DNA of 64,000 bases from Halichondria panicea (lineage: Eukaryota; Porifera; Demospongiae; Suberitida; Halichondriidae). Both the position numbers and the translations under genes were made by a program. A model generated the notes under the pieces. The model was not told the DNA's origin. It searched no databases and saw nothing but the letters and a program-made list of their open reading frames with translations. The DNA lies in the NCBI RefSeq assembly GCF_963675165.1, contig NC_087380.1:6146071-6210070 (forward strand), in the 5' to 3' direction. Each line of letters starts with the position of its first letter. The stretch's first letter is position 1. Positions 4,339 through 61,486 of the stretch are shown in pieces.

Positions 4339-4347
4339 GTCTGCATG

Positions 4348-16878: not shown

Positions 16879-16947
16879 AAAGGCTCATGCAGTCAGACCA
16901 AAAGACCTCCAATAAAACACTTCCTTGCACTGTCTACACTCTCCGAA

Positions 16948-24780: not shown

Positions 24781-25474
24781 CTCAGGCTCTGTACTTATCT
24801 TACCTAGACAATTCCGCTATCTTTAAGATAGGCGTAGCTGAGAAACCGTGAGTACAGTGCCGGCTTCTTTTCTTCAGCTCTCCATTCTCAGGTATGCTAT
24901 ATAGATATGCATGCACTGGCTAGGCATAGGCTTCCATGCTCTTGAAAGACTGCACTTTAAAGATTTACAGTATAAGATGGCTGTCATTTATAACGTTGGT
25001 TCTTACTTCACATATCTGTTCTCAAGTGTGGCATCCAAACCTATACTACAAGACATAACTCGACATAAAGCCACCAAATATAATTATATTGCAAAACTGG
25101 GATATACTACAAAGATATGGACTTATAATGCTCAAATTAATGTGCTGGCTTGAATTACAAAGACATTGTGTTCTTTAATTGTGAAATGCACAGCCAGCTG
25201 ACAACTTCGACATAACCCAGTACATCAAGTTTGCAGAATTAACCTCCTATATAGCTGTCGTATCTCCTGGAAAATGATTATCACTTTCTATATTAGTGAC
25301 CCTTTCCAGCTATTTTATGGTAAAGAATGTTAACCCATTAAATCAATCTCAAAGATCAAAAATTGTGTAATTGAGTGTAACGACACGTTGGGAAGTTGAA
25401 AACGTGGCGTTTTAATAAGTCAGACAAAGTGCGGTGTCAAAACAGAAAAGGCTAAATTAGCAAACCATGCAGTA

Positions 25475-25935
25475 TAGGTTTTACATAGGATTGGCAGTGA
25501 TTTGCTAGCCTCGACCCCAGGCTGGTATGTCTCCAATTTAACACTAGGTCGCCTCCTCAGCCTGGCATTGATTGTATCTAGGCGTGTATCTGCATGGGCA
25601 TGTGCTGTATTTGCTCCACTTTGCTCAGGTATTCGCTCAAAACTCGGCCTGGGTCGAGGCTATGGGTTTGCCGGCACCTGCATGTGTTTATATACCAATA
25701 TTTCACATAATATTATTTTGACTCATGTTCAAACTGTTCTATATCTACAGGGAAAGGTCACATATATCTAGGAACTGGCTGGACAGATCGTTTATTTAGC
25801 CTTTTCTCAATAAACTATCTGTCCAGCCAGTTCCCGGCTAGATGTGGCCTTTCCCTGCAGAGATAGAACACTTTGAACATGAGTTAAAATATGCCAGCGG
25901 TGTAAACACAGGTAAACCCACTGGCACTGCACTGG
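25475..25935. repeat. Palindromic dispersed element
   Basis: The halves are inverted around about 25800. CTGTTCTATATCTACAGGGA near 25735 pairs with TCCCTGCAGAGATAGAACA near 25852, and GGAACTGGCTGGACAGAT pairs with ATCTGTCCAGCCAGTTCC. One-armed relatives starting ACATAGGATTGGCAGTG lie near 44264-44340 and 52300-52440, with a weaker one near 13321-13450. Confidence 0.7.
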
Positions 25936-26018
25936 AAGTGAAACAAAAGCCTATGATCCTCCTATATAGGCTATTAGTATAGCCAGGCAATCGCATAGAC
26001 AAAGCCACGGCACACACA

Positions 26019-26590
26019 CTGCTGTGGCCGTGGGTGCAGTATTACAGTGATTATCGTGCCCAAAAGGCGGATTCCCCTCAATTCGACATAATGAGATTCG
26101 GAATGTGTCTGCCCAACTGATGTCAGAAGTGTGCCACAATGTCTCGATCGAACCCGACACAACCCATTACTGGTGAATCATCTTCTGGTGACATTGCTGC
26201 GAACGGTTTTTGGGAAGCCGCTTTGAGAAAACGTACTTTGGATGTTCGAGTGTTTAATCTACATGCCCCTTCAAATTGAATGTCCTCACTATCTACCACC
26301 TATAGAAAGCACGAAAATATCAAGAAAAGAGCATAAACAAAGAGTAAGAGAAGTGGAGCACAGCTCCTTTACCCCAATCGTTCTGTCACTCACTGGAGGC
26401 CTGGGCAATGCTGCCACCACATGCTACAAAAAACTGGCATCACTACTCTCAGTAAAACGTGGCCAACACTACAACACAACCATGAGTTGGTTAAGATGCA
26501 GGCTCTCTTTCTCCCTACTACGTTCCTCAATTATGTGCATTAGGGGTGCAAGATCGTCTCAAGGCCACCCCATTAAATTAGACGTGCTGC
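26019..26590 (+). pseudogene. Broken retroelement ORF fragment
   Basis: Three frames must be pieced together. One frame has a KGGFPSIRHNEIRNVSAQL stretch near 26050-26110, the next DIAANGFWEA and RTLDVRVFNLHAPS near 26190-26275, and the third VREVEHSSFTPIVLS, TGGLGNAAT and MSWLRCRLSFSLLRSSIMCI near 26350-26545. These are motifs I associate with the C-terminal region of a reverse-transcriptase-bearing element common in invertebrate genomes. Stops and frameshifts separate them, so it is dead. No reverse-transcriptase catalytic part is visible upstream. The exact element class is uncertain. Confidence 0.6.
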
Positions 26591-26942
26591 CAATGGATCT
26601 ACTATAGTAGCCCAAGAATCAAATCTGCTCATTCTGATCACCTAACACGTGTAACTCTTAGCCACAAAATATATCATAATATTATGATAGTCACCGCCGA
26701 TTACACCGATTATACTGCTCAATAATTTATGGCTCGAGTTTCATATTGAAGTGTGTTATTAAGAAATTGCACTCGAGTCAGTATACACGTTTTATCCATA
26801 CGCTCAACACCTACGTAACAGGTCCCCATATTGGAAATATTCGCACACGGACATCTTAAAAATTGTGAAACATTTTCAGTCCGAACATTGAAAGGAAAAT
26901 CTGAAATGGATTTGTAACTAGGTAAACGTAAGGTCGTTTATT

Positions 26943-27203
26943 TTGAGAAAGACAACCTCGCAGCATTTGTCCAACGTAACTGAACCAACATACCTAATAC
27001 CCAAGAACTCTAATTTTGAGGCAGTCGACTCTATATATGTGGATGGAACCAATAGTTATGCATTTCAAATGACTATGAACAAAACCCATCCTTTGAGGAA
27101 GAATGGCCTGGACAGTCAGAACTGCATTGAATTTAAAAAAGCTTCAAGTGTATTTTGTTTTGCGTCGAGATTTACACGGATTACAAGCCACAAAACTATT
27201 TAG
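26943..27203 (+). pseudogene. Possible fragment of a repetitive gene family (uncertain)
   Basis: An 86-codon frame contains IYVDGTNSYAFQMTMNKTHP. This resembles the C-terminal part of the large, repeat-associated families whose proteins carry a YxFQxT..HP motif (Crinkler/RHS-like restriction-fold proteins). There is no upstream continuation and no good splice structure. It may be a degraded fragment or chance. Its last 30 bp mark the edge of the segment copied to 49776-50460. Confidence 0.3.
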
Positions 27204-27390
27204 GAGCCTAAGACTTCTCTTTCTTCGCCATTTAACGACTGTGAACAGTGGGCCCTGAAAATGAATATTCTCCCTTCAACGCTTGACTACAGTTTTGACT
27301 TATGAGAACACCCAAAATTTTAACACTTTTAGCACATGTGTAATAATTCAATGTCACTATCAAGGGCGTATTTGTGAAATTCAATGTAAC

Positions 27391-27720
27391 TTAATTTTTG
27401 TGCCTAGCTATAGGGGCCCGCTCCAGGCGGCTCTTTGTGTATGGGAGCCTCTGCTCCACTGCCTTTTGTCTTGTGCATATACTTATATGTATCAAGGGTG
27501 TTGTATATATTTGTAGTAATGTAGGTATTGTTGCTCTTTGTTCCATAATTAATTTTTGTGGCTAGCTATAGGCGGCTCTTTGTGTATATATGGGAGCTCG
27601 AGCCTCTGCTACACTACTCACCCTCCACCCCTCAGTCACCCTCCACCCTCTCACCCTGTCTTTTGTCTTGTGCATGCATACTTATACATGTAAGGATTTG
27701 TTCTTGTGCATGCATTTATC
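27391..27720. repeat. Two diverged direct repeats
   Basis: A unit starting TAATTTTTGTG(C/G)CTAGCTATAG, continuing through GGCGGCTCTTTGTGTAT and ending TTTTGTCTTGTGCAT, occurs at about 27391-27500 and 27549-27690. The second unit carries an extra CACCCTCCACC-rich insert. Both are copied inverted at 49900-50240. Confidence 0.6.
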
Positions 27721-28044
27721 AGAATACTTTGATGTAGGCCTATAAACAATGTGTTAGTGATTTTCAGCAAAATTAATTTATAGTTTGTAATGGTATACTG
27801 GTTAACATGGTTAACAAAAATGAGAGCATGACAAGCATGTAAAAAAAGGTGCACATAGTGCAAAACATAACATTGCAAAAAAGCAACGATCTAAAATTTA
27901 GTAAATGTTACCTATAAGCACAATTTTAAAATGAGCTTTTCTATGTAAATTTTTAATGCTTAAACACATGATACAATTCCATCTCATAGAGCTAGATTTA
28001 GTAGAAGCAGCAATTCATTCAATTAAACCGAGAATCAGCATCAA

Positions 28045-29112
28045 TCACAGCCCCATGGGCTCATTGTGAACATACTGAACAAATCTCTGAAGCAGAGGCA
28101 TGGAGGAGTCTGGTTGAGGGAGGTTGGTCTCTATCCAGCTAATCTCTCCGCTGATTGTGGGTTTATAAGCCTCCATTATGAGAATGGTCTCTTTGGCTTG
28201 GCTGAGGAAATTGAATTCATCACAGATGTAGTCTATCTCCTCACAGGTGCATTGAAGGTGTAGCATTGATTGGGGGTATAATTGAGATAGGATGTTCTTC
28301 GTCTGAAGAGAAAGGAAGGAGATATAATTATAGCTAGCTTTGTACAGGCAAACAAACTAAGATAGTTCATTAATTATGTGAAGCTGCAGTAATGTTTGGC
28401 AGTAGTATATACAATGTTGTGGTCACCCTTAGCTATTACAATACTGTTGGTCTTCCTTATAATTTTTAAAGGGGTGTTTCACTAGCTGTTTAACAATAAA
28501 ATTTAAGCAAGCATACTGCATACTTACCCATTCACACGAAGTGCGCACCAGTTTGTCAGCAACATATCGTAGCAACCTTACATCTGTATCAGGTTGCTCC
28601 CCAGTAATCGCTTCGAGAGACCAGAGATTAGCTTTAGCATCTCTTAAGGCACAAGTGATATTGAGGGCTTTTGATAGAAGGTCGAGAGAAAAAGTATTGC
28701 TCTGGATTGATCTGGATTCATCCTCTTCATCTCGAATAACTGAGAATAACTTCCCTTCCTGTAAATGTGAAGATTCACGAAATTAGACCTTTTGTTCAGC
28801 ACATTCATACATAGTACGATTTTGAATCAATAACTGTGTATTTCACCTCAGATATATGGGTATTCAATTGCATAGAGTGCACATGAATGTTACGAAGCAA
28901 TTTGATTTAATTATAAAGGAACTCACATGAACTCGACGTAAGACCTCTATTCCATTTTTCATCTGTGTGAGAGCTTGTGTAGCATTGAGCTCTGCACAGT
29001 CAGAGGCTGAGGGTGCCGAGGTGGGAGCAGCTGTCACTAGTCCTGCTGTTAGAGACAAGAGAATCAGCTGTACTGCAATACTTGAGAGGTTGCCTCGACT
29101 GAGTGTGGCCAT
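28045..29112 (-). CDS. Secreted, probably helical protein, family 2 copy A
   Basis: Three exons on the minus strand, 29112-28927, 28758-28528 and 28302-28045, all have phase-0 introns (donors GTGAGT and GTAAGT, acceptors TTTACAG and TCTTCAG). The 62+77+85 residues make 224. The start MATLSRGNLSSIAVQLILLS opens a signal peptide cut near VTA-AP. The mature part is about 195 residues with amphipathic, helix-like stretches (around TQALTQMKNGIEVLRRV, LLSKALNIT, RLLRYVADKL and ISWIETNL). Its cysteines are SDC, ITC, TSC, LQCTC and YIC. The size, secretion, helical content and phase-0 introns recall helical cytokines, but I see no sequence match, so that is only a structural suggestion. An intact near-identical copy lies at 54712-55775. 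The function is unknown. Confidence 0.85.
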
Positions 29113-29240
29113 TTCTATGGTTGCTTGTAGGGAAAGATTTCTGATTAGGTCTCAATAAAAAGTTGCACTGGAGTTAGACAGCTGATTGTTTGTCTTCAAA
29201 CTAAGCACTATAATGAGTTGTGTTGTGGAGTGAGTACCCT

Positions 29241-29248
29241 TTTTTATA
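29241..29248 (-). promoter_or_regulatory. TATA box of family 2 copy A
   Basis: TATAAAAA on the minus strand lies about 130 bp upstream of the ATG. The same TATA, with flanks of about 100 bp, is preserved at copy B (54576-54584), so both copies retain their core promoter. Confidence 0.6.
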
Positions 29249-30100
29249 GTACCTATTTCTGAATGACAACACTATCGTCACAGTGATCAAATTCCACACT
29301 GATGGGTTCCATCCTTCCAATAAAAGGCTTCTCATAATTTATAGTAAACAATCTCCTTGCCAACATAAATTAGCGACACTGTAACTAATTAACCACTGCA
29401 AGGTGCTTCCAAGTGTATATGACAGGCGTTCAGTTGGTATAATTATTACACAAGATCCTATGAAGCTTTAACAAATGATAATTTGCTGAAACTTTAATAA
29501 TTAAGTAATATATACTTGCAATTGTAGCTGCATGATTATTGTGAACGTTTTTACAACACTACATATAATAATAAATTATAGTAATGTATGGTAGCGAACC
29601 AATTAACCGGTGACACCAAAGATTAATTAATATGAGCCATTAAGCTATAATTATGTATACATGCAGTTGATAGATAGTAATCAAGTCAGCTGTACTTGCT
29701 GTAATGTTCCATGCAATAATGTGTACATGACTATAACGCCCACATACTCTTAGTCACTCACACCATGCACCCACCACATGCAGGAGTAACCAATTGTTCA
29801 CTATAAGAGATGTCAATGTACAAGCAGAGGCCATAATTATCTGAACATTTCGTAAGATCTTCATTTGGGAATTGGATATTAAAAAGGCAGAAAATTATTG
29901 GCTGCATACCAATGTAATGTGAAATGTGTACATGCACATACACACAGGATCCTTGCAACATGACATTGTATACAAATTAATAATTGTAGACAATAGTACA
30001 ACATAATTATGCTCACACAAATCTTTGGTTAATAAATTCAGTATAATTACGCTCTACTATGAAGAAGGAAACATTTCATGATTCATGGCACAGTTTGTGT

Positions 30101-33100
30101 TCACTCAGTCTGTGGATTTGTCATTATGTACTTGTACAGTTCCATTAACTTTTTCTGTAGGACGGGATCTGATGTGTCGGTACTCTCGGCCACATCTTCT
30201 TCTGATTCTTCCACTATCTCCTCTAGCCCTTGCAAGGTCTTTAGTTCCTTCTTCAGTTCGTTTAACTTCAAACGGAGCCCGTCAATGCTCCTAAGAAGCT
30301 CATTGTGGGTGAGCTGGTCATCTTTATTGGAATCCAACATATTGAAGATGCGCCGAGTCGGTATTTCTTTGTAGAACTCGTCAGCATCGATACTTTTGGT
30401 ATCGTCCAGGTCCAGGGAATTGAATTTGAAAGAAAAAGCTGTGATAGAAAGAAAAAGCGTTCTTGACTGCACCAAACTGTACATACACATACACATACAT
30501 GTACAGCATAATTATAATAATAATCTATATGGTCACGTAAAATGTACTCACATTGAAGCAACTCGATTGCATTTCTTGTTTTATTTATCTCCACTCCCAC
30601 AATATTAATGTTCCTCTCAATCTCTACCTCTTTCTCTATCAGTTTAACCTCCTTATCTATCAATGATGACGGGGTCCCTTCGTCCTCTACTTCGCTATCA
30701 ATAGGAACACTGTCCTCTGTCGCCCCCGTGGACTCAGTGGAATCAGGGGGTGTGGTAGTAGGAGGTGGGGTAGTAGGGGGTGGGGTAGTAAGGGGTGCGG
30801 TAGTAAGGGGTGGGGTAGTAGGCTTGCTACTCGGCTCTGTTTCCTCCTTTACAGAAACTGTAGGGAGTGAAAACACAATCTACATTTGTGTTGTCTGACC
30901 ATGCAGCATAACTGATTCTTTGCACATGCATGTATATACAAGCATGTACAATGTACATGTGTTACATGTGAGCATATACAATGTACATGTGTTATGTTAC
31001 GTGTGAGCATGTACAATGTACATGTGTTACATACATGTGAGCATATACAATGTACATGTGTTAGGTTACATGTGAGCATATACAATGTACATGTGTTACA
31101 TGTAAGATACAGATAAGCTCACCTGGCAGTTCACTCTCACTGGAGGGTGTTAGGGTGGGTGGAGGAGCAGTAGGAGTGTGGTCCATCGTTTCAGCAGAAG
31201 AAGAGTCTGTGGAGTGAAGACAAACAAAATGAATGGGCATATATACGCATAAAATGCAGGTACATTGTAACATATACACAGTCAAGCAAATGCCGTATTA
31301 GCCGGAAATTTTCGTTTGTACAAATTTCACTATTTGGCTCGAGAGCCCTCAGAAGAAATTGTTCGCAGTTGTAATATTTGCGTTTCAATACCTGAAAACC
31401 ATTGTGAAATACAGATACACGGGAGTTTCTCTCGCGTTAACCTCGAAGAACGCGAAATTTTGCACCCCACGAAAATTTCCCGCTATACGGTAGCTTAAAA
31501 ACCCTCTAGGGAAAGTTAGAGAATTGTCTGATTCAAAAGTTATTTGTACATACTTCGTACATGTACATGCATGTATCTATTCTTTGAAGTAGAAACAATG
31601 TCTTGTGACTGAGTAACTGCATGGGACTAACTTGGGAAGAGTCAAGATACTACAGTGGAAGAAACTGGAGGTGCATGCATGGCCAATGTTTAACAGAAGC
31701 CATTCTATGTATGTTAAGCAGCAGGTTAAATTACATACACAAACACTAACGTACACATGTAGTCACGATGGCAAAGCTACGCACGGCTATAGGACATTAA
31801 AGGAAAAAGAATGTAAACATGAATTAGATAACTGCAACTGCCATCAAATTATAATCGATCTATAGTGCTAGAAATGACTCTAAAGGTGAGGAAGTTCAAA
31901 GATAACTTCGCCAAATAGGAACTTTTGGTTAATAAGCGCACATCAACTAATAGGCGCATACTGGTTAGCAAGCCTGGATAGAAGGCGCATGGTTTTCTGC
32001 ACAGTTCTCTGCCAACAACTGGTCTTCAAAAAGCAACTCTCTAAGCACATACACTGTACAACTTGTCTGGTGTTAGTCCAACCCTACATGTACCTGTACC
32101 TTACACAGTTAAACTATAGAATGTATAATGAGGTCCTATAGAGCAGTTTCCTACTCTGTTGCTAGGGGGCACAGAAAATTATCAGAAAACGCGCACTCCC
32201 AATGACATCCGGAGTTAATTTGATGTTTACTGGAACCAGGGATTAAGACATACTGTCGGAAAAGTATGGCCACGAGGAATGCTAGGGACTTACAATGACT
32301 GTGCTAGTTCTCAACCAGACAAAACATATACATCATCAACCCACACATTTTAAGGAAAAGTCTTCATATTAGCTATTTCCGAGTGCAACTTACCAGGAGT
32401 TTGGTTTTGAAGCAGCACAAGTTTTTCCTGCAGGCCAGAGAGACCGTGGGCAAATCTTTCCAATGAAGTGTTCATCTAGGAAAAATTAAAGTGGAAAATT
32501 AACCTCAGACGATATTATATGGATTCGAACGATACTAAATTAACAAAAACTAACATAATTATTGAAAAATACATTGCTTCGCCACACGCTCATACATGTA
32601 CATACAAAACAGAAAGGCTGGCAAATAAACGCACTCTTAAGAGAGCAGGAAAGCTGAAACTTAGTTCTGGTCATGAATTACGGTAGTAAGCCTAAGGTAC
32701 GGATTCTTAGTCTGGAGGGGCTTCTGTTGTCAATGAGCACTATACATGTAGTTAATATTCACGAAGTGAGCCTCGTGCTATACAGTTTAACACGTGGCTG
32801 GCTTTCGTGGCATGATGTAAGTGCTTCAGCACAATAACCAATTCTAACAAGAATAGTTTTTATTCTTCAATGAAGATATTTTCTTAGCGCCAGCACTTGA
32901 CCCCTCAGCAAAATAAATTATTAACGCCTCTGTGTGAGGAGCAGTGAATACTGACTCAAAATTCCTTGCTTAATACCCACTACCGTTTTCGTTTTTAGTG
33001 GGACAACATACCCTTGATTAATGTATGTAATTCAATTCGTTCATTGCCACCAATTACAAATTTGCAAACATTATTAATACATGTACCTCTTCTATAACAC

Positions 33101-45923: not shown

Positions 45924-48248
45924 ATGAAGAAGAAGCTCGCCCACTTTCCAAGCTCATCGAACAGCAGATATCACCTGCTGACAATTTTCCTGCTGCTTTG
46001 TGCTATTATTCACAGCTGTAACAGTGGCATTGCTCGCAAAAGACTACACAGAGCTAAAGCAGACAGAGTACCTAACTGCTATTTTGTTCATTTCAAGCGG
46101 GACACAGCTATCACGGAGGGGGAGCAACTGATTGACGACTTGAAGAGATTTAATCGGAATTCTTCAATGCCCAAGTTCAGTGCAACGATACAAGGAATTC
46201 TCACAAAAACTGGTCACGGATTTGCAGCTAATATGTCTGATGAAGCTTTGAAATTTGTGAGTTCGTAGATTATGCATTCAAGCGTGTCAGTATAAATTAG
46301 TTATGGTCCAACATAGCATTCCAGCCTACTTGTATTTGAAATTTGACCAGTGTATGGTATTGCACTCTAGGCGGTTGTATGATGGAATGCTTACCTGTGT
46401 TATCATACTGTATAATTATTGTGAGCTTTATAGATGATAACCTAATTAAGTTGAGTCCGGAAATAAGGTTAAACAAGCTTATCCTTCTAGACCAGTGTAC
46501 TTGAGATTCTTAAAAGTTAACTAGCCATGGACTATCCTTTAACTGGAATGGATGAACGTGTACTAGTGACAACAATGTTTGTCAGCAGTCTGGCTAAACT
46601 AACAACGATAGTCTAGACAAAGACAACGGCTCATAAATTTCCTAGCATCTATTGGCACAACAAGCGAGAATTTAATTTTGTGTAGCTACAGATCTATAGT
46701 ATACCTTAAGGTGACATATTTTCACAGGTAGATTTGTTTGCGTTTTTACAGTTTTGTACATTTTGTTGGTATAATTTTTTGCGAAAAGTTGATCTGGATA
46801 CATTAAACAAGAGGGCGGCCAATTATTTGCGAGTACTAATTTTTGTGATTTTACTCTCATTCGCAGAAATAGCAGAAATTAATACACGCGAAAATATGTC
46901 ACCTTAAGGTATAGTGGAACCCCTCTATAACGGACATCTATGGGGAACAATGTTTTGGGCCTTTATACATGCAGAGGGTGGCCTTTGTTGAGAGGTTGTT
47001 TGTACACAAACAGTTCATTTGGGACCTGGGTGCCTGGCTGTTATATAGTAACTGGCCTTTATTGGAGGTGGTTGTTAACAGAGGTTCCACTGTATATGCA
47101 AGCTAAGTATCAATTTACTTGTACATTCAGAAATGTGCGCACAGGTACACAGGCTAATGTTTGAGCTGTGGGATTAAATGCAAGCTATAATAATTATTGT
47201 GTACACTATACATGCATGCACATTGCAGGTTGTGGATCACGACAAAGTAAACTTTGTAGAAGAAGACAGCTACATTCGAGGGGCCCAGTTGGGAGAGTTT
47301 AACTCAACAAATACAAGAGTCACTGGAAACTGGGGTATTGATAGAATGGACACAAAGACTATCCAATACGACGGCCATTACACACCGCCATGTGGGCTGA
47401 CTGGACGAGGTGTAGACGTTTATGTGGTTGACACTGGTTTATATTATGAGCACATTCAGTTTGGAGGGAGAGCAGTATTCTCAGGTTGTGATTCAATCGA
47501 TGTGATGACCAATACCTCTGAGTCAGCTATGGGTAGAGATTGCAATGGACATGGAACTATTGTAGCGGGAGTTATTGGAAGTACAACTGCAGGGGTAGCC
47601 CCTGGAGCTCATCTTTTGTCTGTTCGAGTACTTGGCTGTGACAGAACTGGATCGTGGAACTCAATTTTGCTTGGATTAGAATGCATTATCAACAGAGTTA
47701 ACAAGTACAAAAGCCGATCAGCAGTAGTGAACCTATCTGTTACTGGAGCTAGCAAAAATCGAGCAATAAAAAGAGCAATTGATAAATTAATCGACAGTGG
47801 AGTAACAATTGTTGGAATCTCAGGAAACAGCCGGACTGAAAATTCTGGAAATTCTTGCAAGACTATGCCAGGTTCAATTCCCGGTGTCATTACTGTCGCA
47901 GGGTCCACAAGAGAAGACGAAATATTCAATCGAACACTGCTAGGAAGATGTGTGGATATTCTCGCTCCTGGTAAGGACATTACAAGCATTTGTTTAAACT
48001 CAATTAATTGCACTGAATCGAAGTTACATGGATCTTCCTTTGCTGGACCTCATGTCACTGGAGCTATTGCGTTGCTTCTGGAGAAATGCCCTAAATTGTC
48101 CCCATGGAAAGTACGATATTATCTGCAAACAAAGATGGCCGTTCCCGATATGCTGCATGCAAAAGGAATCATTTCTACAAAGTACCGAGGCACTACACCA
48201 AACCTTTTAGTTCACACTGGACCTGAAATGTGCTCGATAGTGTGTTGA
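45924..48248 (+). CDS. Secreted subtilisin-family (S8, proteinase-K-like) serine protease
   Basis: Exon 1 45924-46256 and exon 2 47229-48248 are joined in phase 0 (GTGAGT donor, TTGCAG acceptor) to encode 450 residues. Order: signal peptide about 1-34 (LLTIFLLLCAIIHSCNS), inhibitor-I9-type propeptide about 45-125 (NCYFVHFKRD to VNFVEED), then the catalytic domain. The triad is Asp179 in VYVVDTG, His219 in CNGHGTIVAG and Ser381 in HGSSFAGPHVTG. The oxyanion Asn is 311 in ISGN. The usual GTSMAAPHV block is here GSSFAGPHV. Several cysteines suggest disulfides, as expected for a secreted enzyme. The start at 45924 is preferred over the in-frame upstream ATG at 45870, because a splice acceptor lies between them and the signal peptide follows the later ATG. 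A truncated copy lies at 56527-57087. The substrate is unknown. Confidence 0.85.
46702..46911. repeat. 210-bp MITE in protease intron
   Basis: TACCTTAAGGTGACATATTT at the left is exactly complementary to AAATATGTCACCTTAAGGTA at the right, flanked by TA. It abuts a second element at 46914. Confidence 0.75.
46914..47092. repeat. Second MITE, adjacent, in protease intron
   Basis: GTGGAACCCCTCTATAACGG at the left and AACAGAGGTTCCACTG at the right are complementary at the ends. The family is the same as 38892-39810. With the preceding element it accounts for about 40% of the intron. Confidence 0.65.
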
Positions 48249-48517
48249 TATTTCACCAGTTTCTTGTCCCCCTTTACCAAACACGATCCAATTTTTTTAT
48301 GTAATTATACTCACAACTGCACTTGATGAAAACCATGACAACACATTCATGGAACACAGGGATTCACAAAAAGAGTATACTACTGCAAAAATTAATGTGG
48401 GCAAAAATGTCTTTTTTGAGTAAACAGAGACAAAATAATGGGTTTTTAACAATAATAAAGAGTGAGACTATAATATTATAAAGGGTACGTACACTTTTAT
48501 AAGAGTATCTTTAAAAT

Positions 48518-49723
48518 GACATAATTCGCTTCCGGTAAATCGTTTCGCTTTTCTTGCTGCAACATTGAGCAGGGCATTCTTTAATAAAATCGCTCCACAG
48601 CAGCAGTCAAAATCTTCATTTTATTCATGTATTCTTTACAATGGAGGCATTGACTTGACTCTTGTGGCATAGTGCTGGCCTTTTTATTCGAGAATTTTGG
48701 CACCGGTGTTCTCTTCGCACTTAGAATTTCAGGTTGTGGTATGACAGGAAATGGGGGGCGTAGCAGATAAGTCCTAGGGGAGAGTGGTTGATTACGACTG
48801 CTAGGCATCGGAATGGGAGGTAGATGTGATCGTGGTGGTGAAAGAGTTGGAAGAGTAACCTGTTCGGGATTGACCTGTTGAAGAGCACAAGGTACGTTTC
48901 CGCGTCGAAGTCTCGAAGATTCTTTCCTTGAATTGAGGTCCTGGCACCATCGCTTGTACAATTGCTTGATTTAGCCGAGTGGATACATCCTTGCTCCACT
49001 ACTGATGAAGGTAGAGAAGGGAGATTGATAGGAGAGGTTTGAGTGATTGGATTAGAAGCACCACGACTAAGTAGAGTGGTAGGCTTTCCCGATGACCCTA
49101 GTACAAGTTGACATTTTTCTTGCTTCGAGGCCTCTTTAACTGAACGTGGTAGTGTTAGCTCCATTTCAGCAGTGGTCTCAAAATGTATCTAAGAGGGATA
49201 CATTTTTCAAAGTGCGTACATGTATGTATACACATGAATTTTGATGACATGGAGCACTTTTTATGCTAAGCAAGCAACACATAATTTGAAACGGGATACA
49301 AGTAAAACAAATTAGACTCTAAGGACAGATATGCTATGAGGATCCTAAGCTAGCATTGTCTATAATTATACACTCAAATTTATGTACATGCCTGATTGCT
49401 TGCTGTTGGAGCATCCAATGTGCCTGATCTGTCTTCTCGGAACATCAACAGCTCACCAGCACGTTTCAAGCTCTGATTTGAAGTAGCTTCTACTCCAGTT
49501 TCTTTCTGAAGTTTCGAAGTGAGTCAGCGCTCCAACGCTCGACATATTCAGCTTTGCCTGAGAGCTTTTCGATGTCTTCTGCCTTCTGAAAAAGATCATC
49601 AGAACTTTCCCTCAGTTGTTGTGCTGTTTGTCTGAGGGACTGTGGAGTTTCGTTAAGTGCTCGCTGCTTATCTTGTATGAGGGTCAGAACATGTGAGGCT
49701 CTCCTATTGGACACCGACTGCAT
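48518..49723 (-). pseudogene. Coiled-coil / Pro-rich protein gene, frameshifted copy 1
   Basis: This is the same two-exon layout as the intact copy at 57335-58541, but with three single-base indels relative to it. One base is missing near 49515 (AAGTTTCGAAG versus AAGTTTTCGAAG), one near 48935, and one is added near 48591. The result is three frame breaks: RNFRKKLE-stop in exon 1, a switch after TSDGARTS in exon 2, and an early stop after AAVERFY. The short CLHCK motif near the C-terminus is still readable in one frame. It lies convergent to the intact protease. Alternative splicing cannot restore the frame at these places. Confidence 0.7.
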
Positions 49724-51489
49724 GTGTAGAAATTTTATTTAGTGATGACCATCAGCAAAATACTACAGTATGATTTCTCATTTTTGTTAACCATTTTTGT
49801 TAACCATGTTAACCAGTATACCATTACAAACTATAATTCAATTAATTTTGCTGAAAATCACTAACACATTGTTTATAGGCCTACATCAAAGTATTCTGAT
49901 AAATGCACAAGAACAAAGCCTTTAAGGTATACATGTATATAAGTATGCACAAGACAAAAGACAGGGTGAGAGGGTGGAGGGTGACTGAGGGGTGGAGGGT
50001 GAGTAGTGTAGTAGAGGCTCGAGCTCCCATATATACACAAAGAGCCGTCTATATATAGCTAGCCACAAAAATTAATTATGACAAAGAACAACAATACCCA
50101 CATTACTACAAATATATACACCCTTGATAGTGAGTATTACATATAAGTATATGCACAAGACAAAAGGCAGTGGAGCGGAGGCTCCCATACACAAAGAGCC
50201 GCCTGGAGCGGGCAGCTATAGCTAAGCACAAAAATTAAGTTACATTGAATTTCATACAAATACGCCCTTGATATAGTGACATTGATTTATTACACATGTG
50301 CTAAAAGTGTTAAAATTGTGGGTGTTCTCATAAGTCAAAACTGTAGTCAAGCGTTGAAGGGAGAATATTCATTTTCAGGGCCCACTGTTCACAGTCGTTA
50401 AATGGTGAAGAAAGAGAAGTCTTAGGCTAGAAATAGTTTTGTGGCTTGTAATCCGTGTTATTACTAACAATTTAGGGAGGTTAACTCAGGTAGGTTGCCG
50501 TTCCATAACAGTTTACAATATTCGAGATTACTAGAAGGTGATGTGAGCTTGCTGGAGAGCACAACAGTAGATCTACCGCATGTACCGCAGGCACCATAGC
50601 TACACTAAAATGTAAGGAAAGGTTAAAGGTCAAAAGCCTAACGTAAACATTGTATGCCACACATTCCATTGCAATGTGACTAGATGACATGTCTCGCCTC
50701 CTCTGGGCTGCTGGCTTCTGGGCTGTAGTACTGTGTACATTGTTAGTCTGGGGGCCATACCGGAAAGAAGGGAGAAAAGGTCTGGAGACTCTTGAAACAT
50801 TTCTGTGTGCTCTTGGGGAATGTCAATTACTTAGAGACTTTGTGACATTGGAGGCTTAAAGAACGAGTAGATGTAGCAATACTCGCATTTCATTGGTACT
50901 ATCCAAATTCCACCAAAAAAATCCAACTTCCATAGAGGCAATACTTGCTTCTAATCACATGACATAGGATGTGTGGTGCATGAATAACTATAAGTGCTGT
51001 GTATTCCTGGATGGTATCACATGACCGCAATGCACTGAACTTGTAGTGATTTGTGCATGCATGTCAGACCTCTTCTGTTTCATTGCCATCGACTCTGACC
51101 ACATTCCGCTAGAGCACACCGAAATGCTGCAAGAGTCTCCAGACCTCCTAGCTCTACTTGATTTTGCCCTCGAGACTTGTGTACAGCTTTACTCTTGTAG
51201 CTAACAAATAGCCTGCTAGCGCTTTAGTTGCAATGCTAACTCATAAGTTAAATATAGAAAGTTTGTGCAAACAGATGATGCTACAACAGCCTTCTCTGTA
51301 AGTAAACTATAGCCATAACTCGAGTTGGTTTTAGCACGAATCAAAATCCAAGGGAAAGTGGCTAGAATCTTAGTTTGTATTGCACTGTAACCATTTAGCA
51401 GTTACACCACACACACTTTACCGTATCCCTCGTGCGGCTACGCTTCGAGGCATAAACATAGTGTACAAATTTGTACTGCAAAAAAATTT

Positions 51490-51916
51490 ATGGATAAGGA
51501 GGTTGAACTGATAGAGAAAGAGGTGGAGATTGAGAGGGACATTAGTATTGTGGCAAAGGAGATAAATAAAACAAGAAATGCAATCGAGTTGCTTCAATGT
51601 GAGTACATTTTACAATTCCAAAACTATCGATGCTGGCGAGTTCGACGAAGAAATACCGACTCAGCACATCTTCACACTGTTGGATTCCGATAAAGATGAT
51701 CAGCTCACCCACGATGAGCTTCTTAGGAGCATTGACGGGCTCCGTTTGAAGTTAAACGAACTGAAGAAGGAACTAAAGACCTTGCAAGGGCTAGAGGAGA
51801 TAGTGGAAGAATCAGAAGAGGATGTGGCCGAGAGTACCGACACATCAGATCCCGTCCTACAGAAAAAGTTAATGGAACTGTACAAGTACATAATGACAAA
51901 TCCACAGACTGAGTGA
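51490..51916 (+). pseudogene. Truncated 3' end of the EFCAB14-like gene
   Basis: This is an inverted copy of the last part of exon 9 (DKEVELIEKEVEIERDISIV) and most of exon 10 of the gene at 30101-38157. The intron between them and the first half of EF-hand 1 are deleted: TACATTTTACAATTCC runs straight into AAAACTATCGATGC. The second EF loop (DSDKDDQLTHDE) and the C-terminus to PQTE are intact. It has no transmembrane exon, stalk or promoter. The fused frame is open, but the exons are not joined in the original phase. It is almost certainly non-functional as the parent protein. Confidence 0.7.
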
Positions 51917-52073
51917 ACACAAACTGTGCCATGAATCATGAAATGTTTCCTTCTTCATAGTAGAGCGTAATTATACTGAATAACCAAAGATTTATGTGAG
52001 CATAATTATGTTGTACTATTGTCTACAATTATTAATTTGTATACGATGTCATGTTGCAAGGATCCTGTGTGTA

Positions 52074-52142
52074 TGTGCATCCTTTGTGTATGTGCATCCT
52101 TTGTGTATGTGCATCCTTTGTGTATGTGCATCCTTTGTGTAC
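52074..52142. repeat. 17-bp tandem repeat, four units
   Basis: Units of GTGTATGTGCATCCTTT are repeated in the right copy. The source locus (about 29930-29950) has a single unit, so the array grew after the duplication. Confidence 0.75.
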
Positions 52143-52274
52143 GTGTCATGTTGCGAAATGTTCAGATATGGCCTCTGCGTGTACATTGACATCTCTTATA
52201 GTGAACGATTGGTTACTCCTGTGGTGGGTGCATGTGTGGGTGTGAGTGACTGAGAGTATGTGGGCGTTATAGTC

Positions 52275-54040
52275 ATTAGTAAAACCATGTACCAGTAGGT
52301 TTTACATAGGATTGGCAGTGGGTTTGCCCGTGATTAGCAATATTTGACTCATGTTCAAACTGTTCTATCTCTGCAGGGAAAGGCCACATCAAGAAACTGG
52401 CTGAACAGATATAGTTTATTTAGCCTTTTCTCTCTTTGTATCTCTCATTTCATAATTCATGAACATTTTAATGAATGAATAATGTCATTTTAAAAATGGC
52501 ACTATTTCGACGTTTCACCGCTCTTTGTCTGACTGACTAATGCACCTATCAATTTCAGTCCCCACTACCCCCCATGCGGGCTAGGTCGGGGTTTAGTGGG
52601 GATTTGATTTACATCAATATCAATTGCCCCACCCCAGGGGGCCTGGTTGAAATCAAATCCCCACTTCTCCTCCCATACACCCACTTAACAACCCCGGGAT
52701 TTGACTACACGTGTGTATGTGCTATACTTTTCCGGATATTACTGCTATAAGTTTGTATATTGAGGAAGTCAAATTCCCCACCCTATCCCGCACCTCGGGG
52801 TTACTTGCTGAATCAAAACCCCAACAAAACCCCACTATGCCCCGCAGGGGGGGGGTAGAGGGGACTGACATTAATAGGTGCATAAGTAAGTAAGTAAATG
52901 AGTGAGTGAGTAAGTAAGTAAGTAAGTTTCTTGCCCAGCATTTACTCCAAGTACAGCCATCTCCAGGACATTCTGCACAGGGTTTCCAAACGACTACAAC
53001 CTGGATTACAAAGCGCTTCTTCAGATTTGCGATTGCTTCCACGAGGCAGATGACCTCTCAGTCTCTATTTCTCTTACCTAGACAATTCCGCCATCTTTAA
53101 TGACTCAGCAATTGCGGTGTGGCCAATAATAATAGATAGGCGTGGCTAAGAAACCGTGTGCCTAAAATCAGTGCAGCAGCAGTGCTTTTCCAGACTGAGA
53201 GCCTGTTGCTTTTCTTCACATTGTTCAGCTCTAGCTCCCTTTCTCTGACGGCATTTATAATACTAATTCACAAATTCAACATATCAAGCAATACTGATTA
53301 CTCATTACTGAATTATTAGTCCAAAGACATTCGAGAAGATATCTGATTAGTCCTGTCTTCTCTTCTTCAACTTCTGTACTGCCTCTTGACGTTCCACTTA
53401 TGCATGTCATAATACGTAAATTTATACTTCTGTGCTGAAAAAGAAAGGGAGAAAAACATTTGCAATGTGAAGATTGGCCAGGGGAACCACAAAAAAGCGT
53501 GGAAACAAGAAATCAGACGAGAGCATAACTCCAATCCGTTACAACGTCATGAACATGTACAATGCATAGTATATAGACTGTGTTCCAGATCCATCTACCA
53601 TGCATGCAGCTTCCATCCACCACATCATTCCATGCAGGTCACCATGCAGTACGGTCCGTGAATGTTACTACACATGGATGGACTGTGTATACCTGTGCTC
53701 AAGACTCCATGTATTAGGAACATCAATTCAGTACAAATCACATGATTATATTCCCGCACATTCCAAAATATAAATATATAGGGATTGCATGGTCATCACT
53801 CCATGCACCAGTAAAAATTGCGTGGTATATTGGCGCATGGACGGGAAAACATGGAAAACTAGCTACCAGTACATGTGATTGACGTTGTAACGGATTGGAG
53901 TTGTGCTCTAGTCTGATTTCTTGTTTCCACACTTTTTTGTGGTTCCCCTGGCCAATCCTAACAATTTTTCACATTGCAAGTGTTTTTCTAGTTGGATGTA
54001 CACATTATTGCATGGAAGTAGAGCTGACTTGATTACTATC
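52275..54040. repeat. Repeat-filled segment absent from the source locus
   Basis: Relative to 29690-29735 this is an extra 1.77 kb. It contains one arm of the 25475-25935 family (52300-52440), a CCCCAC-rich inverted repeat about 52555-52870 (CAGTCCCCAC near 52557 and GGGGACTGAC near 52860), a TAAG microsatellite with its repeat (52885-53060), and the element at 53451-53988. No gene is present. Confidence 0.55.
53451..53988. repeat. Long-terminal-inverted-repeat MITE
   Basis: The arms at about 53451-53547 and 53881-53988 are inverted, around GAAAAACATTTGCAATGTG (left) and CACATTGCAAGTGTTTTTC (right). Both run through TTGGCCAGGGGAACCAC and AACTCCAATCCGTTACAACG. Each arm is about 100 bp. A single arm is present at 12757-12866. 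Confidence 0.75.
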
Positions 54041-54575
54041 TATCGACTGCATGTATACATAATTATAGCTTAATGGGCTCATATTAATTAATCTTTGGTG
54101 TCACCGGTTGGTTCGCTACCATACATGACTATAATTTATATATGTAGTGTTGTAAAAATGTTCACAATAATCATGCAGCTACAATTGCAAGTATAGGTAA
54201 AGTTTCAACACGTTAAACTCTTTTGTACTCCTTTTCACATCGTTTATACTGAAAATCATCACCAAATACGGATTACATACGGAAAAATGTAATAATGAAA
54301 AGAAAAGTTTCTACTTGGAGACTCTGAGCAGTGCAGCTCGATCTTTCCTCACCCTTGCAGGTAAGTTTAAAGCTTTATAGGTAATAATTGCACCAACTGA
54401 ACGCCTGTCATGCATGTACACTTGGAAGCACCTTGCAGTGGTTAATTAGTTACAGTGTCGCTAATTTATGTTGGTAAGGAGATTGTAATTATGAGAAGCC
54501 TTTTATTGGAAGGATGGAACCCATCAGTGTGAAATTTGATCACTGTGACGATAGTGTTGTTTCAGAAATAGGTAC

Positions 54576-54584
54576 TATAAAAAA
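54576..54584 (+). promoter_or_regulatory. TATA box of family 2 copy B
   Basis: TATAAAAAA lies about 130 bp before the ATG with the same flanks as copy A, so the duplicated gene kept its core promoter. Further upstream (beyond about 54390) the two copies diverge through insertions. Confidence 0.6.
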
Positions 54585-54711
54585 GGGTACTCACTCCACA
54601 ACACAACTCATTATAGTGCTTAGTTCGAAGACAAATAATCAGCTGTCTAACTCCAGTGCAACTTTTTATTGAGACCTAATCAGAAATCTTTCCCTACAAG
54701 CAACCATAGAA

Positions 54712-55775
54712 ATGGCCACACTCAGTCGAGGCAACCTCTCAAGTATTGCAGTACAGCTGATTCTCTTGTCTCTAACAGCAGGACTAGTGACAGCTGCTCC
54801 CACCTCGGCACCCTCAGCCTCCGACTGTGCAGAGCTCAATGCTACACAAGCTCTCACACAGATGAAAAATGGAATAGAGGTCTTACGTCGAGTTCATGTG
54901 AGTTCCTTCATAATTAAATCAAATTGCTTCGTAACATGCATGTGCACTGTATGCAATTGAATACCCATATATCTGAGGTGAAATACACATTCAAAATTGT
55001 ACTATGTATGGATGTGCTGAACAAAAGGTCTAATTTCGTAAATCTTCACATTTACAGGAAGGGAAGTTATTCTCAGTTATTCGAGATGAAGAGGATGAAT
55101 CCAGATCAATCCAGAGCAATACTTTTTCTCTCGACCTTCTATCAAAAGCCCTCAATATCACTTGTGCCTTAAGAGATGCTAAAGCTAATCTCTGGTCTCT
55201 CGAAGCGATTACTGGGGAGCAACCTGATGCAGATGTAAGGTTGCTACGATATGTTGCTGACAAACTGGTGCGCACTTCGTGTGAATGGGTAAGTATGCAG
55301 TATGCTTGCTTAAATTTTATTGTTGAACAGCTAGTGAAACACCCCTTTAAAAATTATAAGAAAGACCAACAGTATTGTAATAGCTAAGGGTGACCACAAC
55401 ATTGTATAATTATACTACTGCCAAACATTACTGCAGCTTCACATAATTAATTAACTATCTTAGTTTGTTTGCCTGTACAAAGCTAGCTATAATTATATCT
55501 CCTTCCTTTCTCTTCAGACGAAGAACATCCTATCTCAACTATACCCCCAATCAATGCTACACCTTCAATGCACCTGTGAGGAAATAGACTACATCTGTGA
55601 CGAATTCAATTTCCTCAGCCAAGCCAAAGAGACCATTCTCATAATGGAGGCTTATAACCCCACAATCAGCGGAGAGATTAGCTGGATAGAGACCAACCTC
55701 CCTCAACCAGACTTCTCCATGCCTCTGCTTCAGAGATTTGTTCAGTATGTTCACAATGAGCCCATGGGGCTGTGA
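54712..55775 (+). CDS. Secreted, probably helical protein, family 2 copy B
   Basis: The exons are 54712-54897, 55058-55288 and 55518-55775, with three undamaged phase-0 exons encoding 224 residues. It is the inverted duplicate of 28045-29112. The few differences in the coding region are EQPDA for EQPDT, EAYNP for EAYKP and PDFSM for PDSSM. The signal peptide (MATLSRGNLSSIAVQLILLS), the cysteines and the splice sites are all kept. It lies at the end of the inserted block at 49776-55998, so it now sits beside the protease and coiled-coil genes. It is probably still expressed because its TATA region came with it. The function is unknown. Confidence 0.85.
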
Positions 55776-56030
55776 TTGATGCTGATTCTCGGTTTAATTG
55801 AATGAATTTGCTTCTACTAAATCTAGCTCTATGAGATGGAATTGTATCATGTGTTTAAGCATTAAATTTACATAGAAAAGCTCATTTTATATACTTGTAC
55901 TTATAGGTAACATTTACTAAATTTTAGATCGTTGCTTTTTTGCAATGTTATATGTTTTGCACTATGTGCACCTTTTTTTACATGCTTGTCATGCTCTCAT
56001 AGTAAGTACACAAGTCACACACCTACATAG

Positions 56031-56184
56031 CAGAGGAGGTCCGACAGGCGCGGTGCAGCTCAAGCAATTAGCCACTGATTACTCTCAGCAAAAACATACG
56101 ACGTGGGCGGGGCGTGGGCGGATAATTATTGCTCAATCAAAGGCTAATTGCCTGAGCTGCACCGTGCCTGTCGTACCTCCTCTG
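56031..56184. repeat. 154-bp hAT-like MITE with target duplication
   Basis: The terminal inverted repeats are about 43 bp, with the outermost CAGAGGAGGTCCGACAGG against CCTGTCGTACCTCCTCTG. They are flanked by CCTACATAG (56022-56030) and CCTACATGG (56185-56193). The outer 16 bp match the element at 3299-4338, so the two belong to one family. Confidence 0.75.
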
Positions 56185-56526: not shown

Positions 56527-57087
56527 CCCCTGGAGCTCATCTTCTGTCTGTTCATCTTCTGTCTGTTCGAGTACTTGGCTGTGACAGAACTGGATCGTGG
56601 AACTCAATTTTGCTTGGATTAGAATGCATTATCAACAGAGTTAACAAGTACAAAAGCCGATCAGCAGTAGTGAACCTATCTGTTACTGGAGCTAGCAAAA
56701 ATCGAGCAATAAAAAGAGCAATTGACAGTGGAGTAACAATTGTTGGAATCTCAGGAAACAGCCGGACTGAAAGTTCTGGAAATTCTTGCAAGACTATACC
56801 AGGTTCAATTCCCGGTGTCATTACTGTTGCAGGGTCCACAAGAGAAGATGAAATATTCAATCGAACACTGATCCTCTTTTGCTGGACCTCATGTCACTGG
56901 AGCTATTGCACTGCTTCTGGAGAAATGCTCTAAATTGTCCCCATAGAAAGTACGATATTATCTGCAAACAAAGATGGCCGTTCCCGATATGCTGCATGCA
57001 AGAGGAATCATTTCTACAAAGTATCGAGGCACTACACCAAACCTTTTAGTTCACACTGGACCTGAAATGTGCTCGATAGTGTGTTGA
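56527..57087 (+). pseudogene. Truncated subtilase copy
   Basis: This copies the protease exon 2 from the codons for APGAHLLSV onwards. It lacks exon 1, the propeptide, and the catalytic Asp and His. A 9-bp in-frame deletion removes KLI. A deletion of about 100 bp then removes the region just before the Ser motif and shifts the frame, and the codon after the serine region becomes TAG. The 3' flank still matches the parent. The coding frame is dead. Confidence 0.8.
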
Positions 57088-57334
57088 TATTTCACCAGTT
57101 TCTTGTCCCCCTTTACCAAACACGATCGAATTTTTTTATGTAAATATACTCACACTTTGAGGAAAACCATGACAACACATTCATGGAACATAGTGATCCA
57201 CAAAAAGATTATAGACTACTACTGCAAAAAATTAATGTATACAAAAATGTCTTTTTTGAGTAAACATGCAGGGACAAAATAATGGGTTTTTATTATAAGA
57301 GTGAGACTATAATAATAAAGGGTACACTTTTAAT

Positions 57335-58541
57335 TTAAACTGACATAAATCGCTTCCGGTAGGGTGTTTCGCTTTTCTTGCTGCAACTGTGAGTAGGGCA
57401 TTCTTTAATAAATCCCTCCACAGCAAAAGTCAAAACCTTTATTTTCTTCATGTATACTTTACAATGGAGGCATTGACTTGACTCTTGTGGCATAGTGCTG
57501 GCCTTTTTATTCGAGAATTTTGGCACCGGTGTTCTCTTCGCACTTAGAATTTCAGGTTGTGGTGTGACAGGAAATGGGGGGCGTAGCGGATAAGCCCTAG
57601 GGGAGAGTGGTTGATTACGACTGCTAGGCATCGGAATGGGAGGTAGATGTGATGGTGGTGAAAGAGTTGGAAGAGTAACCTGTTCGGGATTGACCTGTTG
57701 AAGAGCAGAAGGTACGTTTCGGCGTCGAATTCTCGAAGATTCCTTCCTTGGACTTGAGGCCCTGGCACCATCGCTTGTACAGTTGCTTGCTTTAGCCGAG
57801 TGGATACATCCTTGCTCCACTACTGATGATGGTAGAGAAGGAAGATTGATAGGAGAAGTTTGAGTGATTGGATTAGAAGCACCACGAATAAGTAGAGTGG
57901 TAGGCTTTCCCGATGACCCTGGTACAAGTTGACGTTTTTCTTGCTTCGAGGCCTCTTTAACTGAACGTGGTAGTGTTAGCTCCATTTCAGGAGTGGTCTC
58001 AAAATGTATCTATATATAAGAGGGATACATTTGTTAAAGTGCGTACACATGAATTTTGATGACGTGTGGAGTACTTTTTTACGCTAAGCAAGCAACACAT
58101 AATTTGAAACGGGATACAAGTAAAATAAATTAGACTCTAAGGACAGATATGCTATGAGGATCCTAAGCTAGCATTGTCTATAATTATACACTCAATTTAT
58201 GCACATGCCTGATTGCTTGCTGTTGGAGCATCCAATGTGCCTGATCTGTCTTCTCGGAACATCAACAGCTCACCAGCACGTTTCAAGCTCTGATTTGAAG
58301 TAGCTTCTGCTCCAGTTTCTTTCTGAAGTTTTCGAAGTGAGTCAGCGCTCCAACGCTCGACATATTCAGCTTTGCCTGAGAGCTTTTCGATGTTTTCTGC
58401 CTTCTGAATGAGATCATCAGAACTTTGCTTCAGTTGTTGTGCTGTTTGTCTGAGGGATTGTGGAGTTTCGTTAAGTGCTCGCTGCTTATCTTGTATGGGG
58501 ATCAGAACATGTGAGGCTCTCCTTTTGGACACCGACTGCAT
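57335..58541 (-). CDS. Coiled-coil and proline-rich protein with C-terminal CLHC motif (intact copy)
   Basis: Exon 1 58541-58209 and exon 2 58009-57335 are joined in phase 0 to encode 335 residues. Residues about 1-75 form charged, heptad-like helix (LNETPQSLRQTAQQL, DDLIQKAENIEKLSGKAEY). Residues about 150-285 are Pro/Ser-rich (LPTLSPPSHLPPIPMPSS). The end has QCLHCK followed by a basic helix. There is no signal peptide or membrane segment, so it is probably intracellular. The intron appears to start with GC (CAG-GCATGT) and ends TATAG. I recognise no family. Paralogs at 48518-49723 (frameshifted) and 62902-63865 keep the CxHCK motif and the DxSGTxD stretch near the exon junction, which supports this as a real gene. 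Confidence 0.65.
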
Positions 58542-58693
58542 GTGTAGACATTTTATTTAGTCATGACCATTAGCAAAATACTACAGTACGATAGTAAGTA
58601 CAAGTAATAATTATTGGTACCAAGTAATATTGGTGTAAATATGCATGGTCATCATGTGTACACCTACTGTGGCTACATGTATGTTAATGTTAT

Positions 58694-59540: not shown

Positions 59541-61486
59541 CACTGTTAAAAATGGGGTGTTACGTAGCACACTAATTTTAGTAGGTAAATGTCAGTGGTG
59601 TGTTAATGAACACACTCGTGTGTTTGTCGTGCTCAACAACACACTTGGGTGACACAACAGAATGGTGTGTTACTGAACACACTGACATCCATACAGTGGT
59701 GTAAAGTAGCACACGATATATAAGATATTAAGAAGGTCTTTTTACTTTTCAGATACCAGAATTAATATTTATGTTCCACTTAGTAAAGTTAGATCACCAA
59801 GAGTGCTAAGTATGTGCAAGTGAAATAAGAGTTGAAATGCTGCAGTCCCTGCAAATGCGGAAAACAACTTGCTATCACTCTCAAAGGAAGCTTTATACTT
59901 TGCAAACCCAGAAATCCAGGTCCTAAAAGTATGGCTATAGTATATAGAAGCCTGCAATGCATGTAGAATCTCTACATGCATGCTATATAGAGCTAAGTGG
60001 CTAAGTCCAGACCTTCTGTGTGCGCATGCGCATTGAGGCTAGAAGCACATGTAGTGTGCTTTAATTAAAATCAACAAAGACTCAAGAACTGGAGAAGAAC
60101 TCAATTTAGCTCTATACTAACTGCACTGAGTATTTAGCTTTCCTGAAGAACATACACTACTGTAGCACTTCATGGAGCTTCCAAAGGCCATTCATGTGGT
60201 AAGCTGGTGCAATACTATGTGTGATATGATCATATAAATTATATATAGCCTTTCTCACAACTCAGCCCAGAACTTGACCTCATTTTTGACTTGAGCACTG
60301 GTTTGGGTACAGAAGTGACTATTCTCTGGGACATACTAACTGCTATAAATGTGCAGAAAAGTATCCAGGTACGTGGAGTAATAGATATGCTTACCAGACA
60401 TAATTATATTTATTATTTAGGACAAGACAAGATGACAAGATGACAAGATGACTTCAATCAAAATGTGCTACTGCTGCTGTGCGCTCTTTCGTCAAAAAGG
60501 GAACATGTGATGTGCTGTCATTAACAGTAATGTGTTGTAATGATCCGTATAACATTTAAATAGTCATTCGTTGTATAGATGTGTTTTTAAATTGTGTTAA
60601 ATGACTTGTACATTTCGTTGAAATTGCAACAGCACCAAGCTAACTAACATAGAGCAACTACACTATACCGTCCTGAAAATAACCAAGTTACGAGGTGCAC
60701 ATGCACTGTATGCATGTGCTAGACAACCATTATTAGTGTGCTTGAACGCACTGTATGCATGTGCTAGACAACACTTTACCATTATTAGTGTGCTTGAAGG
60801 CACTGTATGTAATTATGTGCTAGACAACACTTTACCATTATTAGTGTGCTTGAAGGCACTTATGCATGTGCTAGATAACACACTTGCCAATGTGTTCAGC
60901 GACACACAACATGACAAGATGACAAGATGACTTCAATCAAAATGTGCTACTGCTGCTGTGCGCTCTTTCGTCAAAAAGGGAACATGTGATGTGCTGTCAT
61001 TAACAGTAATGTGTTGTAATGATCCGTATAACATTTAAATAGTCATTCGTTGTATAGATGTGTTTTTAATTTGTGTTAAATGACTTGTACATTTCGTTGA
61101 AATTGCAACAGCACCAAGCTAACTAACATAGAGCAACTACACTATACCGTCCTGAAAATAACCAAGTTACGAGGTGCACATGCACTGTATGCATGTGCTA
61201 GACAACCATTATTAGTGTGCTTGAACGCACTGTATGCATGTGCTAGACAACACTTTACCATTATTAGTGTGCTTGAAGGCACTGTATGTAATTATGTGCT
61301 AGACAACACTTTACCATTATTAGTGTGCTTGAAGGCACTTATGCATGTGCTAGATAACACACTTGCCAATGTGTTCAGCGACACACAACAGTCTATGTGT
61401 TACAAAACACCTTTAGGGGTGTCAAATTTAAAGTGTCATACCAACATCCCAAAAGTGTGTTCCAGAACACATCATTTTTAACAGTG
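59541..61486. mobile_element. TA-flanked DNA transposon remnant with internal tandem repeat
   Basis: CACTGTTAAAAATGGGGTGT at the left is mirrored by ACATCATTTTTAACAGTG at the right, with TA at both ends (59539-59540 and 61487-61488). No transposase is recognisable. Most of the interior is two 479-bp tandem units. It lies just downstream of the last visible TRAF-like exon. Confidence 0.65.
60432..61389. repeat. 479-bp tandem duplication
   Basis: The units 60432-60910 and 60911-61389 are nearly identical (I noted AAATTGTG versus AATTTGTG). Each unit contains about four diverged 50-bp subrepeats around TTATTAGTGTGCTTGAA. The open frames in it are repeat artefacts. Confidence 0.85.

Follow-up and report, generated by a model that had tools for sequence, protein, structure and literature searches.

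A gene-bearing segment of the Halichondria panicea genome is present a second time 20-30 kb away on the same chromosome, copied backwards and with its order rotated, and this copy probably arose through a circular DNA intermediate. The window, which is the whole 64,000-nucleotide stretch of DNA that was analysed, was compared with itself by BLAST. Positions 49775-56000, referred to here as the block, correspond to a minus-strand copy of source 27822-27174, then 21308-20281 and then 30664-27820. This layout agrees with the preliminary description, in which the block was read as the minus strand of three source stretches, and the edges agree to within a few bases. All pieces of the block lie in minus orientation relative to the source. 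A plain inverted copy would be expected to run from 30664 down to 20281; the block instead runs through pieces A, B, C and D. Its start and its end both correspond to a single source point, and the far ends of the source are fused at ~51483, close to the ~51480 first proposed for this joint. Across 4015 aligned columns of block and source, 93 are substituted, and chance cannot be the origin of this match. The features of the source and of the block are as follows.

20281-21308, minus strand: source piece B, one end of the putatively circularised segment; holds interspersed repeats; 990 of 1014 ungapped columns agree with block 50468-51482
21309-27173, no strand assigned: source interval with no counterpart in the block, repeat fragments excepted (self-BLAST)
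27174-27822, minus strand: source piece A, ending on the right at the point where the putative circle would have been opened
27820-30668, minus strand: source pieces D and C; 30664-30668, where the putatively circularised segment would end on the other side, is within an open frame extending further upstream
49775-49792, plus strand: left edge scar, TT and then CTCATTTTTGTTAACC, which gives a 13-bp direct duplication (raw edge compared with the source)
49792-50458, plus strand: block piece A, source 27822-27174 inverted
50459-50467, plus strand: joint J2, ~9 bp of filler that joins 27174 to 21308
50468-51482, plus strand: block piece B, source 21308-20281 inverted
51483-51485, plus strand: joint J3, the putative circle-closing point, which fuses source ends 20281 and ~30664-30668
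51486-52276, plus strand: block piece C, source 30664-29727 inverted, with a 5'-truncated EF-hand exon; aligned parts are 51486-51613 (30664-30537) and 51612-52276 (30405-29727)
52277-53995, plus strand: interspersed repeat, a later insertion that is itself interrupted; splits source 29727/29728
53996-56000, plus strand: block piece D, source 29728-27820 inverted, with two open frames that are open in the source too; aligned parts are 53996-54195 (29728-29511) and 54367-56000 (29471-27820)
54196-54366, plus strand: 171 bp of non-source sequence that replaces ~40 bp of source

The interval 21309-27173 yields only repeat fragments in the self-comparison, as expected from the earlier statement that source 21310-27175 is not in the block. 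Genome searches with 22000-24600 and 25000-27173 gave partial matches, and no second full copy of this interval was found among the best 40 of 873 and the best 40 of 578 candidates, respectively. The EF-hand exon in piece C matches Pfam EF-hand_6 at 25.8 bits (cut-off 25) and Med9 at 27.4 bits (cut-off 26.9). An identity as LETM1 was considered for this exon and rejected, as neuronal calcium sensor 1 is its best match among solved structures (E 0.0011). A protein search with the exon returned the source and the block only (2 of 2 candidates). In the two open frames of piece D, 0 synonymous and 4 nonsynonymous changes are observed in the first and 3 and 2 in the second, numbers too few to judge selection. 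The element at 52277-53995 is ~1.4 kb long, is interrupted by ~350 bp, and has matches longer than 450 bp at at least 40 other loci (best 40 of 1075 candidates). Elsewhere in the window, three head-to-tail colinear units occupy 1-18153 and repeat a cysteine-containing open frame of 154 amino acids at 2652, 11535 and 17155. An inverted relative of this frame is found at 22163-22753, and the frames at 2652 and 22163 have no Pfam match at E≤0.1. At 60427-61390, a 485-bp stretch is tandemly duplicated with copies that are 99.6% identical, a smaller difference than that between the rotated block and its source.

The block interrupts one of two tandem units, and the other unit retains the empty target site:

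47609-49774, plus strand: tandem unit A, the left flank of the insertion; matches 56552-58592 with 81 of 2021 columns substituted
56552-58592, plus strand: sister tandem unit without the insertion
58578-58602, plus strand: empty target site in the sister unit; the insertion point lies between 58592 and 58593
56010-56180 (approximate), no strand assigned: small element with inverted-repeat ends, to the right of the block, which breaks the flank homology (raw sequence inspected by eye)

The sister unit reads GATAGTAAGTACA, and the left and right flanks of unit A join at this position as GAT+AGTAAGTACA, which upholds the earlier claim that the empty target is kept in the sister unit. From this reading, no target base was lost and at most AT is shared. 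The match of the right flank to the sister unit is only 10 bp long (12 bp with the ambiguous AT) and resumes at 56224, which corresponds to 58811. Within the small element, 29-41 bp at 56020-56060 recur at at least 40 places in the genome. The tandem unit that received the insertion also contains an open frame of the Subtilase family (Peptidase_S8) at 47178-48248, with a partial second copy in the sister unit. A sister tandem unit of this kind can act as an empty-site control with no relative at hand.

The divergence of the pieces is consistent with a single event. Relative to the source, piece A carries 16 substitutions in 642 columns, piece B 24 in 1014 and piece D 31 in 1821 (4/199 and 27/1622), for a block divergence of ~2%. 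These three pieces do not differ in their divergence (p=0.33, piece C not being part of this test) and, among themselves, give no sign of the insertions of different ages named in the preliminary description. The tandem units differ more from each other than the block does from its source, which fits an insertion after the tandem duplication. In genome searches, no long match except the source was found for pieces A, C and D (best 40 of 63, 3 of 3 and best 40 of 62 candidates; 54021-54366 lay outside the searched part of the block); the other matches were to a repeat of ~90 bp in one search and to sequence outside the block in another. As A, C and D have no other long match among the scored candidates, a single reinsertion is favored. 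Piece C, with 38 substitutions in 761 columns, is more diverged than A, B and D in both of its parts (C1, 9/128; C2, 29/633), as would be expected if the pieces had been inserted separately at different times. Against such a history, the divergence of A, B and D is alike and the first diverged stretch of C ends inside one exon. A block that is only an artefact of assembly is at odds with the ~2% divergence, the insertions and deletions private to the block and the matching empty site, all of which are unlike misassembly. Separate insertions and artefact are, taken together, scarcely credible.

The source is the ancestral copy, with the direction of transfer running from the 20-30 kb locus to the 50-56 kb locus. 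At J2, this polarity is demonstrated by the continuity of a repeat: the repeat in piece B runs past 21308 in the source and is cut at the same point in the block. Sixteen copies of this repeat were fetched, of which ten are unbroken across the point corresponding to 21308, three (L043, L044 and L045) are interrupted within ~25 bp of it, and three (L047, L048 and L049) do not cover it. An alignment of six of the ten unbroken copies shows each of them running on beyond the point at which the block breaks off. At the other end, an open frame that runs on past 30664 in the source is truncated at that position in the block. The empty sister unit, the continuity of the B repeat in the source and the open frame cut at 30664 together argue that the block derives from the source. 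A 9-bp insertion is common to source and block and absent from the six aligned repeat copies; since it is shared by these two alone, piece B came from this particular source copy. An independent transposable-element insertion was rejected as the origin of piece B, given its match to the source copy over the columns listed above and its being cut inside a repeat. In the other genome matches of B, identity does not exceed 88% over lengths above 150 bp and is up to 93% in shorter pieces (best 40 of 2089 candidates), with one 40-bp piece of the repeat reaching 97.5% elsewhere. Since three of the 16 repeat copies are interrupted at the J2 spot, with three more not covering it, breakage or insertion may occur readily at this spot. 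The break point in the B repeat, at 21303-21331, lies near the interruptions of L043, L044 and L045 and is perhaps a favored site of insertion or breakage.

At the outer edges of the block, the two sides of one source point are found. At the left edge, unit A (...AGTATGAT) is followed by TT, CTCATTTTTGTTAACC and ATTTTTGTTAACCATG..., where the source reads GCTCTCATTTTTGTTAACCATG; the 13-bp direct duplication at this edge is ATTTTTGTTAACC, preceded by TT. The right edge reads ...GCTCTCAT and then AGTAAGTACA. It had been claimed that one source junction is split to the two outer edges. The single point holds, at 27820-27822; the split is not perfectly clean, as each edge carries CTCAT, an overlap of up to 5 bp there. 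At J3 (20281/30664-30668), a few bases at most are ambiguous. No homology was found at E≤1 between the circle ends (20281±500 compared with 30664±500). At the same threshold, the opening point and the target share only three matches of 14-21 bp (E 0.43), and the two sides of J2 share three matches of 11-17 bp (E 0.12-0.43). The joints display short indels or microhomology only, with neither long homology nor transposon ends.

These joints bear on several other routes of insertion. Terminal inverted repeats are absent from the ends of the block, where the best score was equalled by 10.7% of 300 random pairs. Insertion as a DNA transposon was rejected on this basis, together with the sharing of at most AT with the target and the lack of further long matches to A, C and D among the scored candidates. 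Helitrons have TC...CTRR ends and integrate between A and T; the right end of the block, read by eye from the raw edges, is CTCAT, for comparison with CTRR. Template switching (MMBIR/FoSTeS), in which the three source pieces would have been copied in turn into the target with no circle, fits the J2 filler and the templated-looking left edge, both of which resemble the products of switching polymerases, and MMBIR has been invoked for the insertion of circles too (PMC7450558). What this process does not predict is that the end of the last piece meets the start of the first within 5 bp. For an independent end, the chance of such a meeting is ~0.1% if the whole 10.4-kb source is considered and 0.24% if the retained length is taken instead, and template switching is accordingly held to be highly improbable.

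A circle accommodates this closure directly. The earlier proposal that the rotation is what a circle predicts is supported by the fused source ends, the single opening point, the one orientation, the empty target and the equal divergence of A, B and D. In the proposed mechanism, a segment from ~20281 to 30664-30668 would have been broken or copied out of its chromosome or sister chromatid, and its two ends would have been joined to give a circle of ~10.4 kb, or of ~4.5 kb if 21309-27173 had already been lost. The circle would then have been opened once, at source point 27820-27822, and the linearised molecule inserted in reverse orientation at a break in one of the tandem units, 20-30 kb distant. 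Repair would have proceeded by end joining with a small fill-in that left the templated-looking scar, perhaps by a pathway of the polymerase-theta type. Joint J2 would represent an extra deletion, which may have occurred before or after the circle stage. Points that weigh against a circle include the need for J2 beyond the circle alone, a right-flank homology to the sister unit of only 10-12 bp, the interrupted repeat copies near J2, the raised substitution across J3 described below, and the observation of a single event (n=1), which makes a chance rotation by re-ligated fragments possible.

The strongest rival is random stitching: the source would have broken into three fragments, with no circle, and chance ligation at the target would have produced the rotated order. 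It holds this place because three fragments can be arranged in 48 ways, counting order and orientation, of which 6 are compatible with a circle, and 4 of these 6 are not colinear. For two fragments, 4 of 8 arrangements are circle-compatible, again with colinear ones counted. CTCAT would also stand at both edges after a clean break at 27820-27822 whose stagger was filled in, and J2 demands an extra joint in any case. On the other side, the shared orientation and cyclic order are expected in just 12.5% of random arrangements, colinear ones included, and the outer edges of the block carry both sides of one source point. Shattering is on balance unlikely, and the circular intermediate is retained as the preferred explanation.

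The substitutions in the block are not evenly distributed. The best-scoring segment of raised substitution, block 51379-51713, extends to both sides of J3 and carries 27 substitutions in 317 columns, compared with 66 in 3698 elsewhere. In a permutation test, 0 of 5000 permutations reached the observed score (best 18.1, compared with 18.76). This count covered 4015 columns and excluded the edges, the joints, 51613-51626, 52039-52276 and the insertions at 52277-53995 and 54196-54366. Within this first raised stretch, deletions of ~143 and 18 bp of source are found at 51612-51626. Loss of an intron through RNA was rejected for the gap at 51612, which begins at a possible GT donor and does not end at AG (by eye). 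A second raised stretch, 52014-52276 (13/233), falls in a repetitive and poorly aligned part outside the cluster count; between the two stretches, at 51714-52013, 2 of 300 columns are substituted. Either raised stretch could point to a different history for piece C. The idea that only the block mutated is not supported as the cause of the J3 cluster, as the changes fall on both copies where the repeat copies permit judgement. Comparison with ten other repeat copies over the first 250 bp of B assigns 5 changed sites to the source and 2 to the block, and one of these 2 is part of the J2 filler. In the final ~115 bp of B, adjoining J3, 3 substitutions are assigned to the block and 2 to the source, with 2 undecided (by eye, two copies).

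The arrangement of the block resembles that of previously described duplications. Chicote et al. (2020) gave a change of order from A-B/C-D to B-A/D-C as the signature of human segmental duplications mediated by circular DNA (PMC7450558). The block has in common with these duplications the B-A/D-C order, the internally fused source ends and the presence of two copies. The joints are also alike in lacking long homology and carrying short indels or microhomology; those of the human cases display gains or losses of 1-27 bp and microhomologies of 1-2 bp (PMC7450558). The block thus fits the human signature in all features tested and is a real case of an already known kind. In contrast to the human ancestral copies, which are 22-3918 kb long and form intrachromosomal pairs 0.09-58.48 Mb apart (PMC7450558), the block involves ~4.5-10.4 kb moved over 20-30 kb, is inverted and has the extra internal joint J2. 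The same rotation test, seen as two parallel lines in a dot plot, is described in PMC7188851. A lariat-type (eltDNA) duplication, as described in that source, needs pieces in opposite directions and was rejected, because the pieces of the block are all minus. Insertion of a circle by recombination between repeats has been described as well (PMC9132208).

The preliminary description had placed the precedents in vertebrates. Fish, cattle and human cases agree with this statement, which is nevertheless too narrow, as yeast is also represented (PMC7450558). In the cattle color-sidedness translocations (Durkin et al. 2012, as cited in PMC7450558), a segment moved via a circular intermediate, as is proposed for the block; unlike the block, these segments are 492 and 575 kb long, carry KIT and have a phenotype. 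For the yeast five-ORF clusters and the 28-kb tilapia vasa duplication (as cited in PMC7450558), reintegration of a circle was proposed that, like that of the block, involves neither classical transposition nor homologous recombination. The yeast clusters reflect many integrations (PMC7450558), whereas the block reflects a single one.

According to the account in PMC7450558, the arguments made so far for duplication through circles concern very large segments in mammals, together with a small number of other cases. Among the titles and opening lines of abstracts listed in a literature search, none reported that a chromosomal segment had been duplicated through a circle in a sponge; one listed paper deals with microDNAs and mitochondrial DNA in sponges (PMC11572364). 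The block therefore offers a small case in a compact animal genome (131,455,214 bases in 39 contigs) in which the closing joint, the opening point and the empty site can be read to a few bases. The Wnt family, which is specific to animals, has 10 matches above the cut-off in this genome and none in 14 control genomes. A bolder proposal, which is distinctly doubtful, is that small gene-bearing DNA circles in the germline are a regular route of local gene dispersal in this animal lineage and that circle closing is mutagenic, such that a cluster of substitutions at the joint would mark old events. Should the block turn out to be typical, many lineages could have genes moved locally by circles a few kb in size, and such events could be counted by a simple dot-plot rule.
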